A stretch of DNA of 64,000 nucleotides from the NCBI GenBank assembly GCA_937873495.1, contig CALMXZ010000002.1, forward strand, positions 62,001 to 126,000, read 5' to 3'. Position 1 is the stretch's first letter. The number at the start of each line of letters is the position of its first letter. The notes below the pieces were generated by a model. That model was not told the DNA's origin. It worked only from the letters and a program-made list of their open reading frames with translations, and did not search any database. The DNA comes from an uncultured Trueperaceae bacterium. GTDB lineage: Bacteria; Deinococcota; Deinococci; Deinococcales; Trueperaceae. The position numbers and the translations under genes were made by a program. Of this stretch, positions 9,361 through 26,209 are shown piece by piece.

Positions 9361-9414
9361 GGGGTGCTTCAGGGTGCGTGGCAGCCGGGGCAGACGTAGC
9401 CACTGAGCAGATGT

Positions 9415-9740
9415 TCAGTAGATGACCGCATCGAGTAGCGCCAAGACTTCGTCCAGCACCGCGGGTGGCGCTTCGCCGGCCCTTCGCATTTGAAGTCGAC
9501 CGACTTGATCTGCTCGACCATGATGAAGCCGGTCACGGCCGCTGCGCTTGGCAATTCGACATGAAACGGGAAATGTCGACGCGTGCTGGTGATGGGGCAG
9601 ACGATGCAGAGACCGGTATGGCGATTGAACAGCCCGTTGCTGACGACTAAGGCTGGCCGACGACCGTGCTGCTCGTGACCCGATCGAGGGTCGAAGTTGA
9701 CTGTGACGAGATCGCCTTTGCGTGGGACGTAACTTGTCAC
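9415..9740 (-). pseudogene. mazF: frameshifted MazF-type toxin (endoribonuclease)
   Basis: The first 84 codons read as a normal MazF: GDLVTVNFDPRSGHEQHGRRPALVVSN, then PITSTRRHFPFHVELP and MVEQIKSVDFK. The frame then degenerates (CEGPAKRHPRCWTKSW) and runs to 9369, while the canonical ending GEAPPAVLDEVLALLDAVIY lies in the next frame and stops at 9415. Adding one A to the AAA run (TTT on the plus strand at 9489-9491) restores SVDFKMRRAGEAPPAV, so a one-base contraction explains the break. GTG start directly after mazE. The mutant protein lacks the C-terminal helix that MazE binds. A sequencing error is the alternative. Confidence 0.85.
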
Positions 9741-9989
9741 TCACCACGCCTCCCTTGAGAGCGGCTCGCCCCAGTCGACTTCTTCCGGGGCATAGTCCTT
9801 TGGTATCGCCTCAACCAGCGCCCTAAGGTCGAGCTTGCCCCGTACCGATCGGGCGGGTCGGACCACGATCGTGCCATCTTCGACCACGATGATCACCTCG
9901 TCTCCGACTTCGAGATCCGCTTGTGCCAGGATCGCTTTGCTCAGGCGGAGCCCTTGGCTGTTCCCCCAGCGTTGGATCTTCGCGTTCAT
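9741..9989 (-). CDS. mazE: MazE-type antitoxin, AbrB-fold
   Basis: The 82-residue antitoxin begins MNAKIQRWGNSQGLRLSKAI, the classic MazE AbrB-type DNA-binding half, followed by VGDEVIIVVEDGTIVVRP and an acidic flexible tail (YAPEEVDWGEPLSREAW) that would wrap the toxin. An in-frame upstream ATG at 10025 lies inside the inverted repeat and is a less likely start. Its stop is immediately followed by the mazF GTG. Because the toxin is frameshifted, this antitoxin may now act only as an autorepressor or as an antidote to related toxins. Confidence 0.9.
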   Translation of the reverse strand: MNAKIQRWGNSQGLRLSKAILAQADLEVGDEVIIVVEDGTIVVRPARSVRGKLDLRALVEAIPKDYAPEEVDWGEPLSREAW

Positions 9990-9997
9990 CGGTGTTC

Positions 9998-10029
9998 TCT
10001 CATGGCTATACAAAGTTATAGCCATGAGA
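9998..10029 (-). promoter_or_regulatory. mazEF operator/promoter: 13-bp inverted repeat
   Basis: A perfect 13-bp inverted repeat, TCTCATGGCTATA at 9998-10010 and TATAGCCATGAGA at 10017-10029, has a 6-base spacer. The minus strand contains TATAAC inside the repeat, fitting a -10 element. MazE and other AbrB-fold antitoxins bind palindromes at their own promoter, so this is the probable autoregulatory operator. Confidence 0.65.
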
Positions 10030-16219: not shown

Positions 16220-16972
16220 CTAGAATGGTAGGTCCTCGCTAGTGATACGGAAGTTCAAGCGGTCAGTGTTTTGGTCGAGCCATTCAAAACCCGCTTCTGT
16301 TGTCTCAATCGCCGAGTAGGGATAGCCACTTTCATCTTGCGTCTCGCACTCAACAAGAAGGCTTCTGCGCAAGAGTGATCGGATAGCGAGGGCCGCTGCG
16401 ATGTCAGCGTATCCTGCCCGATTCAGATCCTGCTTCAATTGCCATCTTGTCGGAAGCGAACTAGGGGTGGCTGAGTAAGAAGCTACGGCAATCAGAGTGG
16501 CGACCTCATGGTCCGATAGCCCGCCGGATGTTGCTAAGGGAGAGAGGTCAGCAATGTCAGTTAGCTCTCGTTGCCGGTCAAGCCCCGCCTTGAGTTTTGC
16601 GGTCACTCCCGAGGCCAAGTCGGCGAAGTCCCGAGGAGACTCCGACTTGTAGTGAATGATAGCTCGATGCTGGATATCAAACGGGAATCGCGTCCGCGTT
16701 TCATCACAGACAATGACAACCTCTTTTCTTGCGGCGATGGCGTAGCCCAATTCAAACCATACATTCGGATTGTCCTGAGACACTTCGGCGAAGCATATAT
16801 CTGACTTCCTGATCCCGCGTTCAATGTCTTGGATCGGGACGACAACTCGCGGGTCTTGGTCAACTCGATACGGTTCGAGTCCTGCGGCTTCTATCGCGTG
16901 CCGGAACACGTCTTCGTACCGCTTGTCGTACGTGCCTCCGTCGAAGGGTTGGATCACAAAGCAAAAGCCCAT
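16220..16972 (-). CDS. nucleoside 2-deoxyribosyltransferase/TIR-like domain protein with winged helix
   Basis: From the chosen ATG the protein is 250 residues. The N-terminal 130 residues (MGFCFVIQPFDGGTYDKRYEDVF, VDQDPRVVVPIQDIERGIRKSDICFAEVSQDNPNVWFELGYAIAA) match the Rossmann-like nucleoside deoxyribosyltransferase family: NPNVWFELGYA carries the expected catalytic-type glutamate, and PFDIQHRAIIHY is a conserved later motif. The C-terminal 90 residues look like a winged helix (LPTRWQLKQDLNRAGYADIA). Domains of this superfamily are common nucleotide-consuming effectors in phage defence. The start is uncertain: in-frame upstream codons exist and no Shine-Dalgarno is seen. GC is low. Confidence 0.7.
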   Translation of the reverse strand: MGFCFVIQPFDGGTYDKRYEDVFRHAIEAAGLEPYRVDQDPRVVVPIQDIERGIRKSDICFAEVSQDNPNVWFELGYAIAARKEVVIVCDETRTRFPFDIQHRAIIHYKSESPRDFADLASGVTAKLKAGLDRQRELTDIADLSPLATSGGLSDHEVATLIAVASYSATPSSLPTRWQLKQDLNRAGYADIAAALAIRSLLRRSLLVECETQDESGYPYSAIETTEAGFEWLDQNTDRLNFRITSEDLPF

Positions 16973-17221
16973 GACCCATGGTCGACCGTGCAGGAAGTTT
17001 TGGCAAGTACTTTGAGCCGGTCTCACACTCATCGTGGCCGGGCAGCATAGCAACCTTGCGAACCCAGCCACCTGCGAACACTCCACCCAAATCGCTCCAA
17101 GGAAACCTCACTTCTCTGCGACCTGAAAGCACCCTATGGTGTTTCAAAGCCGCCGCAGTTCGAGGTGGGTCAAGGGTCGTGCCTTGGATGTAACAAGCAG
17201 TCACGGTCGGATCGCTATAAA

Positions 17222-17249
17222 AAACCTGATAACTCGTCTTATCAGACTA
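17222..17249 (+). promoter_or_regulatory. dif-like recombination site (or operator) beside a tyrosine recombinase
   Basis: The core CTGATAA at 17226-17232 and TTATCAG at 17239-17245 are perfect inverted repeats around a 6-base centre (CTCGTC), giving the 11+6+11 layout of Xer/dif sites, including the inner ATAA...TTAT. It lies 16 bases upstream of the recombinase start. Single-Xer systems (XerS, XerH) also place their dif beside the recombinase gene. Alternatively it is an operator controlling the recombinase promoter. Confidence 0.5.
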
Positions 17250-17252
17250 AGC

Positions 17253-17258
17253 TAAACT
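17253..17258 (+). promoter_or_regulatory. leaderless-type -10 element of the recombinase gene
   Basis: TAAACT ends 6 bases before the ATG and no Shine-Dalgarno is present, the arrangement of leaderless transcripts that are abundant in Deinococcus. It overlaps the right flank of the dif-like inverted repeat, so a protein bound there could also control transcription. Confidence 0.45.
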
Positions 17259-17264
17259 CCCACC

Positions 17265-18326
17265 ATGAGACCAGAGCTCGAAGTCGCCCGCAGCACCGAC
17301 ACGCTCGCCCGCGCCGAGTCTTGGGCCGGATTACCGCCCGAGGAACTCAAGCGCCGCGCCGCCGGCGCGGCCACGAACCGCGACGCCGAGCAGCTCTGGG
17401 CCCTGACCGAAGCGTACCTCTTCCTGCACGGCTCGCGCGGCGCGAAGGTCAGCCGGCACACGCTGCGTACCTACCGGCGTGGCGTGCTCGACCTCGTCGA
17501 GGCCTGGGCCGGCGAGAACCTCCTGCGGCCGAGCCGTGACGCTGGCGTGGTCTACATGCGGCGGCTCGAGGCCCGGCCGGCGCCGGGCGCCGCGCAACCC
17601 CCCAAGACCAAGCGAGCGGCGACTGCCCGACCCGACGACGGCGCCGACGAGCCGCTCAGCCCGGCGTCGCTGCAGGTGAAGCTCGCCGCGGCGCGTACGC
17701 TGTACAAGGCCTTGCGCTGGGCCGGCGCGACCGAAGCGCGGCCCTTCGATGACGTCAGGGTCGCCAAGGACCCGACGCCGGCATGGGAGAAACGCCGCCC
17801 CTACACCGATGACGAGGTCGAGGCGCTCCTGGAGTTCGCCGATCCCGCTGAGAAGATCATCGTGCTCCTCGGCGCCCACGCCGGCCTCCGGATCTCCGAG
17901 ATGACCGACCTCAGATGGACGGACCTCGATCTGGAGCGCGGCCAATTGCGCGTGCGCTCTGGCAAGGGCGGCAAAGCCGCGACCGTTAGCCTCACTAAGC
18001 GCCTCAGGGACGCGCTTTCCGACCTGAGGCTCGTCGCGATGTCCGGCCAGAACGGCAAGAACAGGCAACGCGACTCGGGTCTGGTCCTGCCTTGGGCGGC
18101 GGATCACGCCAGGCGCAGGTTCAAGCACGTCTGCGCGTTGGCCGGCGTCGAGTACGTGAGCGCCGGCGTGCACGGCCTGCGCCACGGTGCCGGTACCCGC
18201 TACTACCGGCAGACTGGCGACCTTGGCAGGGTCGCCGCTCACCTGCGCCACGCGGACATCCAGACCACGCGCATCTACGCCAAGATCAGCGCGCAGTCGA
18301 TCGGCGAGGACATCGAGGACTGGTAA
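17265..18326 (+). CDS. tyrosine recombinase, XerC/D type
   Basis: The 353-residue protein has an N-terminal SAM-like core-binding domain (residues 45-165) interrupted by a Pro/Arg/Asp-rich linker near 105-125, and a C-terminal catalytic domain. All catalytic residues are visible: R209 in HAGLRISE, the beta-hairpin lysine in RSGKGGKA, H303 and R306 in HGLRH, H329 in HLRH and the nucleophile Y338 in TRIYAKIS. Such enzymes cut and rejoin DNA to resolve chromosome dimers or integrate elements. It is high-GC like the host, unlike the patch to its left, favouring a housekeeping Xer. A dif-like site lies directly upstream. Confidence 0.92.
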   Translation: MRPELEVARSTDTLARAESWAGLPPEELKRRAAGAATNRDAEQLWALTEAYLFLHGSRGAKVSRHTLRTYRRGVLDLVEAWAGENLLRPSRDAGVVYMRRLEARPAPGAAQPPKTKRAATARPDDGADEPLSPASLQVKLAAARTLYKALRWAGATEARPFDDVRVAKDPTPAWEKRRPYTDDEVEALLEFADPAEKIIVLLGAHAGLRISEMTDLRWTDLDLERGQLRVRSGKGGKAATVSLTKRLRDALSDLRLVAMSGQNGKNRQRDSGLVLPWAADHARRRFKHVCALAGVEYVSAGVHGLRHGAGTRYYRQTGDLGRVAAHLRHADIQTTRIYAKISAQSIGEDIEDW

Positions 18327-21998: not shown

Positions 21999-22772
21999 TC
22001 ATCGGTAGGTTCCGATGGTACCGCTTCTCACCAGGTAGGGCTCCTCGCACCCCTCGACCTTCAGAAGCAGGCCGCCGTCGGTGGCGATGCCGCAGGCCAC
22101 GCCCGTCAGCGCGCCATGGAGCGCCGGGCCGTCGACGTCACCGGGCTGCCCGGCGCGCGGTGCGTGGGCGACGGCATCCTGGACGGTGACCACCTTGCCG
22201 AACAGCCAGTCTCGGGTGGCGAAGCGGCGGCCGAGGCCGTCGGAGGCCGACTCCGACGTGCCGGCGGCCAGCCTCAGCGCCGCCTCCATACCCTCCACCA
22301 CGAGCTCAGACACGGCCGCGCGCGTCAGCACGCCGGCCAGGGCGACCGAACCAGGCGGCGGGGTGTTGTCCACGTTGATGCCGATCCCGACGAGCAGGTG
22401 GCCCTTGACCCGCTCCACGAGGATGCCCCCGAGCTTACGGTCCTGGTAGTAGAGGTCGTTGGGCCACTTGACGGTGCACTCAGTGCCGGCGCCGGCGAGG
22501 GCCTCGGCCACGCAGACGCCCACCGCCAGCGGGAACCAGGGCGCGGTGCCCAGTCCAACCGGCTCCGGGATAGCGAAGGTCGAGTAGGAACCGCCGGCGC
22601 CGCTTCGCCACTCGCCTCCCCGCCTGCCCCTACCGGCCGTCTGGGCGTTGGCGCGGACCACCACCCACGCGACGTCCTCGCCCCCGGCGAGCCGGCGCTT
22701 GAGGACGTCCTGCGTCGAGTCGACGACGTCATGCTGTTCGACGCGCCAGGCGATCACCCGGCCGGAACTCAT
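21999..22772 (-). CDS. birA: biotin-[acetyl-CoA-carboxylase] ligase
   Basis: The 257-residue enzyme attaches biotin to carboxyl carrier proteins via biotinyl-AMP. Visible motifs are VDSTQDVLKRR, the biotin/ATP loop GRGRRGGEW, KWPNDLYYQDRKLGGILVE and GIGINVDN, then a C-terminal SH3-like domain. There is no N-terminal helix-turn-helix, so it is a class I ligase that does not repress transcription. The start overlaps the smc stop (ATGA). The C-terminal region holds an insertion rich in Ala/Pro (AHAPRAGQPGDVDGPAL). Confidence 0.93.
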   Translation of the reverse strand: MSSGRVIAWRVEQHDVVDSTQDVLKRRLAGGEDVAWVVVRANAQTAGRGRRGGEWRSGAGGSYSTFAIPEPVGLGTAPWFPLAVGVCVAEALAGAGTECTVKWPNDLYYQDRKLGGILVERVKGHLLVGIGINVDNTPPPGSVALAGVLTRAAVSELVVEGMEAALRLAAGTSESASDGLGRRFATRDWLFGKVVTVQDAVAHAPRAGQPGDVDGPALHGALTGVACGIATDGGLLLKVEGCEEPYLVRSGTIGTYR

Positions 22773-25700
22773 CCGACGGGCAGCGCGTCCGCTCGCCGAG
22801 CCGCGCCCGACTCGGGCTCCTTGCGCACGCTGAAGACGCGCGAGACGCCCTGCTCCGTCGTCACGCCCCAGATGGCCTCGGCGATCTCGAACGTCGCCTT
22901 CTGGTGGGTGATGAGGACGAACTGCGTCCCGCGCTGGGCGAGGCGTTCGACGAAGGACCCGTAGCGGCGGATGTTCGCCTCGTCGAGCGGAGCGTCGACC
23001 TCGTCGAGGACGGCGACGGGCAGGTTCGCCCCGTCCGCCGAGAGCAGGGAGAACAGGAAGGCCAGCGCCCCCATGGTGCGCTCCCCGACCGAGAGCAGGT
23101 GCAGCGACTGCGTCTGCTTGCCCGGTGGCTGCAGCCGGATGCGCAGACCGACCGGCCTCGCGCCCTCGGCCTCCACCTCGATGCCGCCGCGGCCGTCGTC
23201 GCCGAACAGTTGGCGTACGTGGCGCCCGAACGCCTCCTGGAGCCGCTCCACGGCGCCACCGAGGCGCGCGGTGGTCTCCTTGTCGATCCGGTCGAGAGCC
23301 GCCTGCAGCTCCGTCACCGCGAGCGTCGCCTGGACGGCCTCGACCTCGAGGTTCTCCAGGCGCTCCTTCGCCTCGGCCAGGTCGGCTACCGCCCGGTGGT
23401 TGACGGCACCGAGCGCTTCGAGCTCCTCGCCAACCTCGCGGACGCGAGCCCGGGCAGCGCGCTCGCTCGTGTCGAGGGCGACGAGGCCGGGCGGGAAGTC
23501 GCGCAGCTCTTCCTGCGCCAGCTCCAACGCCGTCTCGCGGCGGGCGGCCTGGACCTTCGCCTCCTCGAGCTCCTGGGCGCGCGCCGCCTGGGCCTCCGCC
23601 ATGCGCGTGAGGGCCGCTTCCGCCGCCGCCAGGCCCTCGCGCGCCGTTCGGAGGGCGCTCTCCTCGGCGTCCAGGTTCGCCGGCACGGCCGCCTCGGCGA
23701 GGTCGCGAGCGGCGCGGGCCTCGGTGAGCTCGCGTACCAGTTCTGCCTCGCGCCCGGCGTTCGCGGCCAGGACGTCGCGCAGCTCGCGCGCCCGTTGAGC
23801 GCCGGCGGCGAAGCGCGCCTCGGCGTCCAAGTACGTGCGCCACCGCTCCTCGACGAGGGTGGCCGCCTGCCTGGCCGAGTTGGCTGCCAGCTTGCGCTCC
23901 GCGGCGAGCGCCCTCACCCCTTCCAGGTCATGCACGGCGGCCATGAGGTCGGCCTCCGCGCTCGCGACGGCTTGCGCGAGCGCCGCGACGGAGAGTACTT
24001 CGTCACCCCGCGCTTCGGCGGCCCCCAGCGCCGCGGCCTCCGAGGTCAACCGCTCCTGGCGCGCCTGGAGGTCGACGGCCAGCCGCTCGTGGCCGGCGTG
24101 CTGCTCGCGCGCCGCCGCGAGGGCCTGAGCGGCGGCGCGGTTCTCATCGGCGGCCGAGCGCTGCTCGTCCAAAAGGGAGCGCAGGGCTGCCTGCGCCGTC
24201 GCCAGCCGCGCCGCGCTCGCTTCGCCGGCCGTCGTCGCGGCGGCGGCGGCGGCCTCGGCCTCCTCCAACTCGGCGGCCGCGCCGAGGACCGTGGCGTGCT
24301 GCGAACGCTTGCCCCCGGACATGGCACCGGTGGCCTCCACCACGTCGCCCTCCAGCGTGACGAGGCGCGGGCGCTGCGCCTCCTGCCTCGCTATGGCCGT
24401 GGCGTCGGCCATGGTCCTGACCACCATGGTGCCCCCGAGGAGGTTCTCGAACAGGACCCGGTACTGGGAGGCGATCGTCACGAGCTCGAGCGCTGGGCCT
24501 ACTACGCCCCGGCGCGTCGCGAACGAGCCGTGACCGCGCTCGGGCTGGCGCCGCAGCAGGTCGAGGGGGAGCACGGTCACGAAGCCGCCCGCGCGTCGCA
24601 CATGACCGATGACGGCCTCGCCGGAGTCGGCGTCGGTGACGACGACGTACTCGGCACGCCTACCCAGGGCGCCCGCGATCGCCTCCTGGTACTCGGGGGC
24701 GACCTTGACGAGGTCGGCCACCGCCCCGACTACCCCGGGCAGACCGGAACTCAGGGCGTTCCGGGGGCCTTGCGCGAAGCCGCGACGGGCCTCGAACGCC
24801 GCGCGGCTGCGGCCGGCGGCGCGGGCACGGGAGACGGCCTCCGCGCTCAGCAGCGCGTGCTCCTCGTGCGCGCGCGTGAGCGCCGCCCGCTGCGTCTCGA
24901 CCTGCGCTTCGACGCGCGCCAGCTCGGCCGCGGCGGCGGCCTGACGTGCGAGAGCAGCAGGGAGGTCGGCGAGCCCCGCGTCTGCCGACAGGGCGGCGAG
25001 CTGCTCGCTCACCTTCGCCAGCTGGTCCTCGATGGCGGAGCGCGTCGAGTCGAGCGCCGCTGCCGCCCGCTCGGCCTCGGCGTGCTCCGTGCGCCGCCGC
25101 TCGAAGGCCAGCCTCCTCGACCTCTCGAGCTCCACGGCGGAGTTGAACGCAGCCTCGGCCGCGTGTTGCGCCGCCGTGGCCGCCTCCACGTTCCTGCTCG
25201 CGGCGTCGGGCGACTCCTCCGGCTCCGTCGGCGGCGCAGCCGCCTCGATGAGCGCGAGCTCGTCGCGCGCTCGCGACGTCTGGGCGCTCAGGTCGCCCAG
25301 CCGCTCCGTCGAGCGGGCGAGGCGCTCCTCGGCGAGCCTCAAGTTGCCACGCCGGTACTCCAGCTGGGCCGACGCTTCGCGGTACCGCTCCTCGGCCGCG
25401 TCCCTCGCACCCGCCCCCGACCTGGCCGCCGCCCGCGACGCCTCTAGCAGCACCCGCCCTTCCAGGATGGCGGCCTCGAGGAGCGCGCGCTTCTCTTCCA
25501 GCTCGCGCAGCTCGGAGCGCAACGTGCCGACGCGGGTAGTGGCGAGCGTATAGCGCAGCGCGAGCTGCTCGGCGCTCAGCCGGGCGTGCTTCGCGGCGTC
25601 GCGCGCCTCGGTCTCCAGCGCGGCGCAGCGCGCCGCCAGCTCGACGAGGACGTCTTGCAGGCGCGCGAGGTGCTGGGTCGCCGTGTCGAGGCGCGCCCAA

Positions 25701-26209
25701 GTCTGCTCCCTGCGGCCGGCCAGGCGGGCCACCCCGGCCGCCTCAGCGACGTACTCGAGGAGCTTGGCCGGGTCGGCCATCAGCACCTGGCTGACCTCGC
25801 CCTGTCCGATGATCGCCACGCCGGAGCGCCCGAGGCCGCTTCCCGCCAGCGCGTCCTCCACGTCGAGCAGCCTGGCGTTGCGCCCGTCGAGCTTGAGCCG
25901 CGTGGTCCCTTCGCGATCGAGGCTGCGGTAGACCTTGACGCTCCTGGCGCCGTCCCTCAGCTCGACCTCGACCTCGGCGAGCCCGACCGAGCGCTTGCCG
26001 CTCGCGCCGTGGAAGATCAGATCAGTCTTGTCCGTCGCGCGGAACTCGCGCGCGCGGCCGCCGCCGGTCGTCCAGCGCAGCGCGTCGATGACGTTCGACT
26101 TGCCCGAGCCGTTCGGTCCGATGATGGCCGTCACGCCGGGCGCGAACTCGATGCTCACCCGGTTGCCGAAGCTCTTGAAGCCTTGCAGCGTCAGGGACGC
26201 CAGTCGCAC
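22769..26209 (-). CDS. smc: chromosome segregation/condensin ATPase SMC
   Basis: The 1146-residue SMC has a head with Walker A (IIGPNGSGKSNVIDALRW, residues 29-46), a coiled coil to about 480, a hinge (about 490-640, GLPGVVGAVADLVKV and GGRRLVTLEGD-like region), a return coil and a C-terminal head with Walker B (PVAVLDEVDAPLDEANIRRY). The signature reads LSVGERTMGALAFLF instead of the usual LSGGE. It folds and segregates the chromosome with ScpA/ScpB, which are not in the window. Its start follows hspR by 12 bases and its stop overlaps birA, so it sits in a heat-shock-controlled transcription unit if no internal promoter exists. Confidence 0.95.
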   Translation of the reverse strand: MRLASLTLQGFKSFGNRVSIEFAPGVTAIIGPNGSGKSNVIDALRWTTGGGRAREFRATDKTDLIFHGASGKRSVGLAEVEVELRDGARSVKVYRSLDREGTTRLKLDGRNARLLDVEDALAGSGLGRSGVAIIGQGEVSQVLMADPAKLLEYVAEAAGVARLAGRREQTWARLDTATQHLARLQDVLVELAARCAALETEARDAAKHARLSAEQLALRYTLATTRVGTLRSELRELEEKRALLEAAILEGRVLLEASRAAARSGAGARDAAEERYREASAQLEYRRGNLRLAEERLARSTERLGDLSAQTSRARDELALIEAAAPPTEPEESPDAASRNVEAATAAQHAAEAAFNSAVELERSRRLAFERRRTEHAEAERAAAALDSTRSAIEDQLAKVSEQLAALSADAGLADLPAALARQAAAAAELARVEAQVETQRAALTRAHEEHALLSAEAVSRARAAGRSRAAFEARRGFAQGPRNALSSGLPGVVGAVADLVKVAPEYQEAIAGALGRRAEYVVVTDADSGEAVIGHVRRAGGFVTVLPLDLLRRQPERGHGSFATRRGVVGPALELVTIASQYRVLFENLLGGTMVVRTMADATAIARQEAQRPRLVTLEGDVVEATGAMSGGKRSQHATVLGAAAELEEAEAAAAAATTAGEASAARLATAQAALRSLLDEQRSAADENRAAAQALAAAREQHAGHERLAVDLQARQERLTSEAAALGAAEARGDEVLSVAALAQAVASAEADLMAAVHDLEGVRALAAERKLAANSARQAATLVEERWRTYLDAEARFAAGAQRARELRDVLAANAGREAELVRELTEARAARDLAEAAVPANLDAEESALRTAREGLAAAEAALTRMAEAQAARAQELEEAKVQAARRETALELAQEELRDFPPGLVALDTSERAARARVREVGEELEALGAVNHRAVADLAEAKERLENLEVEAVQATLAVTELQAALDRIDKETTARLGGAVERLQEAFGRHVRQLFGDDGRGGIEVEAEGARPVGLRIRLQPPGKQTQSLHLLSVGERTMGALAFLFSLLSADGANLPVAVLDEVDAPLDEANIRRYGSFVERLAQRGTQFVLITHQKATFEIAEAIWGVTTEQGVSRVFSVRKEPESGAARRADALPVG

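Follow-up and report, generated by a model that had tools for sequence, protein, structure and literature searches.

The 64,000-nucleotide stretch of an uncultured Trueperaceae genome analyzed here, referred to below as the window, contains a short palindrome directly upstream of a tyrosine recombinase gene, which raises the question of whether the two form a module that resolves chromosome dimers. In the literature we searched, chromosome dimer resolution in Deinococcota is unsettled. Deinococcus and Thermus are absent from the main text of a comprehensive dif prediction paper (PMC3025954), and a study of FtsK in D. radiodurans presented six recombinases as candidates along with putative dif sites, leaving the choice to later work (PMC9764985). 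We estimate a probability of roughly 0.87 that the 28-bp palindrome is the chromosomal dif of this Trueperaceae-like bacterium and that the one Xer recombinase cognate to it is the product of the neighboring gene. A named site, recombinase, and terminus position in the culturable Truepera, Oceanithermus, and Meiothermus make the question of dimer resolution testable.

A dif-like palindrome upstream of a tyrosine recombinase gene

The site, AAACCTGATAA-CTCGTC-TTATCAGACTA, occupies positions 17222-17249 and has the general form of a dif site, with about 28 bp, inverted 11-bp arms, and a 6-bp spacer. Its left arm (17222-17232, plus strand), the putative binding site for one recombinase subunit, is kept in the genomes G003, G004, and G005. 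The right arm (17239-17249, minus strand) is the putative site for a second subunit, and the central CTCGTC (17233-17238) is the putative strand-exchange overlap region; a spacer of 6 bp recurs in nearly all related sites found. Symmetry between the arms is perfect over the inner seven bases (7/7), reaches only 1/4 in the outer bases, and amounts to 8/11 overall. A preliminary description of this DNA had read CTGATAA-N6-TTATCAG in an 11+6+11 layout with inner ATAA/TTAT, exactly as the window letters have it (core CTGATAA-CTCGTC-TTATCAG, 17226-17245). Its distance of 16 bases to the recombinase gene needs correction to 15 bp, the gap between the end of the palindrome at 17249 and the ATG at 17265.

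When any sequence is allowed, this GC-rich window has many inverted repeats of the 7+6+7 type (13 observed, about 11 expected). With TAA/TTA at the inner ends, one was present in the window and none in 300 Markov-generated windows. For the pattern CTGATAAN6TTATCAG with up to three mismatches, the expectation is 0.15 matches per window; its sole match was the exact one. When the search for further copies was extended to the whole 3.4-Mb genome with up to two mismatches, three places matched this pattern and none matched a reversed control pattern. The palindrome is not a chance occurrence.

The adjoining xer gene (17265-18326, plus strand) encodes a tyrosine recombinase of 353 aa (Pfam Phage_integrase, 85.9 bits, together with a SAM-like N domain), putatively the only recombinase cognate to the dif site. 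It had been described as possessing all catalytic residues, and the set is complete: R209, K234, H303xxR306, H326, and Y338 are present and invariant across 18 relatives. Archaeal XerA (4a8e, 5hxy) gave the best PDB-chain profile matches as well as the top fold match, and XerH (5jjv, 58 bits) was weaker. Because the AlphaFold model has a pTM of 0.51 and the full-length TM-scores in the fold search were 0.34-0.44, that search speaks for a tyrosine recombinase and for nothing narrower.

We compared the recombinases of the draft genome with curated families. A canonical xerC/xerD pair, which the preliminary description had named as evidence against its reading, was sought genome-wide, and none of the PF00589 genes reached the TIGR02224 or TIGR02225 cut-offs for XerC and XerD. 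The window Xer scored 47.2 bits against the XerS family NF003462 (cut-off 267) and 77.5 bits against the archaeal XerA family NF040815 (cut-off 220). Since the cut-offs for XerC, XerD, XerS, and archaeal XerA were not reached, we file the module under no named Xer family, XerH and XerL included. The recombinase is not "lone", as it had been called: the genome holds seven Phage_integrase genes, and a genome-wide search for a second xer found a closest paralog with 50% identity, likewise below the XerC and XerD cut-offs, that has a related dif-like site of its own. The FtsK gamma domain was present as one coding copy in each of seven genomes searched, including that of the window. As a separate observation, three tandem tyrosine recombinase genes with overlapping ends lie at G000:C11, ~234.5-237.8 kb (L002 784-2993, L003 1168-3092); none exceeds the XerC/XerD cut-offs, and they look like a mobile-element trio.

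Conservation of the site among relatives

To compare the xer upstream regions of relatives, we scanned up to 200 bp upstream of each gene for arms with inner TAA/TTA or TTA/TAA and at least 8/11 symmetric positions, using windows from the same loci as controls. An 11+6+11 palindrome was found by these rules at 10 of 17 Trueperaceae clade-A or basal loci (1.5% of control windows), at 11 of 20 loci from other families (0.3%), and at 9 of 16 Deinococcota plasmid loci (0%). When spacers of 3-10 were scanned over the three sets, all matches had a spacer of 6, save four other-family loci with a spacer of 8. Some clade-A sites were missed by the scan, lying farther upstream or falling marginally below the threshold.

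The letters of the arms vary by lineage, and the palindromy and the 6-bp spacer are retained. CTGATAA is the arm in the window's genus and two other genera; CCAATAA, ACGATAA (11/11), AAGATAA (11/11), and CCACCTAA occur upstream of other xer orthologs, and family f3 has ATTCCCGTTAA (11/11 symmetric). The comparison suggested in the preliminary description thus came out in favor of its reading, with the palindrome conserved and symmetry kept while the arms change. Symmetry that persists through letter changes would fit one protein binding both arms, and such sites form a natural series in which the co-evolution of recombinases and their sites can be followed.

The xer gene stands beside its own dif, the arrangement of single-recombinase Xer systems of the XerS/XerH type. 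The right flank of the pair is common to relatives and the left flank is not. On the right, outside the module, the conserved neighbor is an smc-like gene (22769-26209, minus strand; name read from sequence), which shows synteny with xer/dif in seven genomes (G001, G003, G004, G005, G009, G019, and G021).

Position at the replication terminus

Because the draft genome comprises 17 contigs (3.4 Mb, 97% completeness), its terminus was placed by way of a relative. The contig containing the window, C2 (216 kb), is collinear with 1.23-1.39 Mb of a complete genome of the same genus, G001, in which xer occupies the matching place. The cumulative GC skew of C2 is maximal in the 70-80 kb bin, and dif lies at 79,226. 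Measured from dnaA as a fraction of the circle, xer is located at 0.493 in G001, 0.4998 in G017, 0.531 in G038, 0.513 in G056, and 0.4995 in the chromosome of G046, so that the terminus placement is repeated in five complete chromosomes from three families. In G017, presumed to be Truepera radiovictrix, a species with a genome of 3,260,398 bp (PMC3072082), the sampled GC skew was for the most part positive up to xer and for the most part negative beyond it; in G001 and G021 the sampled skew was too weak or noisy to locate the terminus. The preliminary description had asked whether the site lies at the GC-skew switch opposite oriC. For the window itself, the skew peak of C2 and the collinearity with G001 place it there, in agreement with the distance of about 0.5 from dnaA in relatives, and the site is very probably the chromosome's dif.

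G021 is an exception, with its clade-A xer at 0.25 of the circle beside a weaker site and an xer of a different clade at 0.49. Its two xer genes are found at G021:C1 2,557,748 and 3,581,898.

Plasmid-borne pairs and a second recombinase clade

Complete plasmids of Oceanithermus, Meiothermus, and Deinococcus have xer genes of their own, paired with private palindromic sites. The plasmid of Oceanithermus profundus, of 135,351 bp (PMC3111992), has an xer with the adjoining site ATGTCCACTAA-TACTTG-TTAGTGAACAT (NC_014753), and the chromosome has ATTCCCGTTAA-TAACCC-TTAACAGGAAT. The nine plasmid loci with a site include those of M. taiwanensis pMtWR-220 and D. aetherius pDAETH-1 (perfect 11/11), and a search for a TAA/TTA-type site found none at seven plasmid loci, that of D. 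radiodurans MP1 among them. In Deinococcota, the site and its own recombinase seem to travel as one cassette, on the chromosome and separately on large plasmids.

The 50%-identical paralog in the window genome, on contig C15, is a member of a separate clade, clade B. A site related to that of the window, TTGATAA-GACGAC-TTATCAA, lies 2.5 kb from it, and related sites likewise occur in G003 and G005. No TAA/TTA-type site with spacer 6 was found within 200 bp upstream of clade-B genes; where found, clade-B sites are 2.5-11 kb from xer. C15 shows little synteny with the sampled chromosome of G001. A search for parB covered ten genomes, and each of the seven that carry a clade-B or B-like xer had a second, distinct parB. 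Of those with no clade B, G017 and G021 had one parB each; in the complete chromosome of G001, a second parB that is weaker and different lies next to an integrase gene (G001:C1 1,423,102-1,424,329), possibly an integrated plasmid-like element. The second parB and the clade-B or B-like xer share a contig in G004, where the recombinase gene is a diverged fragment with a long branch, and in G020; three of the second parA/parB pairs were verified by Pfam. From these associations we infer that clade-B xer and the second parAB mark a second replicon. In G002, a clade-A xer is represented by its C-terminal 54 residues at a contig edge (G002:C53:3334-3495; L273, also L081), and this genome therefore probably carries both clades, with only B complete.

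The genus g16 shows a different arrangement. In its genome G020 (97% complete), there are two GATAAN6TTATC sites but only one Phage_integrase gene, which belongs to clade B and lies on contig C65. One, AAGTGTGATAA-GACAAC-TTATCAAACCC, is located ~0.7 kb from smc, where other genera have the clade-A xer; the other, GCGTGTGATAA-TCTGCC-TTATCAAACCC, is on C65. The two sites have most of both arms in common and differ in the spacer. On the simplest reading, g16 seems to have retained the chromosomal dif after losing the chromosomal xer, and the C65 recombinase would act at both sites. We lean slightly towards a general scheme for Deinococcota in which each replicon has a private xer/palindrome pair, with different arms on plasmids and chromids, and in which the recombinase of the ParAB2 replicon serves both sites in g16. 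If true, such private pairs would offer a multi-replicon cell one means of keeping its replicons from fusing.

Alternative explanations

Palindromes near start codons are often operators, and this one ends 15 bp upstream of a start codon; the recombinase or another protein might bind it and control transcription of the recombinase gene, as the preliminary description had also considered. However, among clade A and basal relatives the site lies anywhere between 15 bp and ~1.9 kb from xer, and in G020, G027, and G033 a site of the same type persists beside smc where no tyrosine recombinase gene is close by, the only PF00589 gene of G020 being on another contig. A 6-bp spacer with TAA/TTA ends is moreover the architecture of an Xer crossover site, and an operator would leave the terminus position unexplained. 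The variable distance and the xer-less sites make autoregulation extremely unlikely as the role of the palindrome, although recombinase binding may have a secondary regulatory effect.

The flanks bear on another suggestion of the preliminary description, an attachment site for the low-GC patch to the left. The palindrome would then mark the integration of this patch or of some other element, with the gene as the corresponding integrase. GC content drops to 0.53-0.59 at 14-17 kb, and it is the left flank that relatives do not share. However, the site is present in a single copy in the 216-kb contig, where the next-best 28-mer matches at 17/28 positions, and no half-site borders the patch. The gene, for its part, lies on the conserved side, in the same neighborhood as in other genera. 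Elements can insert at a dif site, but we saw none here that has a visible second att site, and we regard an attachment site as highly unlikely. The plasmid-borne pairs described above, together with the apparent link between clade B and a second parAB, would also suit a Cre/loxP-like cassette for plasmid multimer resolution that sits in the chromosome by chance and does not serve chromosome dimers. Clade A, however, is found at the terminus with neighbors conserved across several genera, a placement too regular across the five complete chromosomes and three families for such a stray cassette to be anything but extremely improbable.

A probable single-recombinase module and its counterparts

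Upstream conservation, terminus position, and the absence of genes above the XerC/XerD cut-offs support the single-recombinase dimer-resolution module suggested in the preliminary description as the probable function of this locus. The site, the gene and its catalytic residues, the terminus location, the conserved architecture with changing arms, the FtsK-gamma gene, and the family scores were computed; the mechanism we propose goes further, to binding, cleavage positions, FtsK dependence, and dimer resolution itself. Two recombinase subunits would bind the two near-identical arms of dif. Once sister chromosomes had been joined into a dimer by homologous recombination, the two copies of dif would be synapsed at the division septum, presumably gathered by FtsK, which would also activate the reaction. 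The active-site tyrosines would cut at the borders between arms and spacer, and strand exchange across the 6-bp CTCGTC would add one crossover, so that the dimer would become two monomers.

On the best reading, the module would act like known single-recombinase Xer/dif systems, to which XerS, XerH, and XerL are comparable. In difSL/XerS of Streptococcus and Lactococcus and difH/XerH of Campylobacter and Helicobacter, one recombinase of ~355 aa acts at a site beside its gene at the terminus (PMC5357621). The preliminary description had drawn the same parallel, and the review agrees with it. The window module resembles these systems in its single recombinase, gene-adjacent site, and terminus location. 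The near-palindromic arms of the Deinococcota sites, often symmetric at 10-11 of 11 positions, with a 6-bp spacer, set them apart from difSL, a 31-bp site of atypical form, and from difH, whose 11/10-bp arms are imperfect. XerL of Legionella and Coxiella, by published description, is likewise a single recombinase with long palindromic arms. In Legionella, however, dif and xerL are >400 kb apart, whereas the Deinococcota pair usually adjoins, and the phyla differ. A plasmid-encoded XerL of Coxiella with its own plasmid dif has been proposed to act also at the chromosomal dif (PMC9765430), which provides a precedent for the apparent arrangement in g16.

The XerC/XerD-dif system has in common with that of the window an 11+6+11 site at the terminus, tyrosine recombinases, and the FtsK gamma domain. 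It uses two recombinases, whereas the window genome has no pair above the cut-offs, and the near-palindromic arms of its site are what binding of a single protein to both sides would lead one to expect. Archaeal XerA/dif shares the single recombinase and gave the best structural-profile match, but XerA is FtsK-independent (PMC5357621), whereas the window genome and its relatives encode an FtsK gamma domain. In V. cholerae, the dif1 and dif2 sites of two replicons differ in their central regions and share common recombinases (PMC2533119), a combination of shared recombinase and divergent spacers like the one that appears to hold in g16. The XerCD proteins of V. cholerae are chromosomal, whereas the only recombinase found in g16 is on the contig with the second parAB, and most Deinococcota lineages analyzed here, unlike V. 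cholerae, have one recombinase per site.

Other genes to the left of the site

Two overlapping small ORFs at 9369-10025 (minus strand) resemble, by reading of their sequence, a MazF-type toxin and an AbrB-type antitoxin; PADLOC gave no match for this pair. The ORFs of the low-GC patch belong to no clear family. One of them, at 16220-17086 (minus strand, 288 aa), has a weak TIR match (PADLOC, 4e-7) and a sub-cut-off Pfam match resembling nucleoside deoxyribosyltransferase, and may possibly encode a defense effector.
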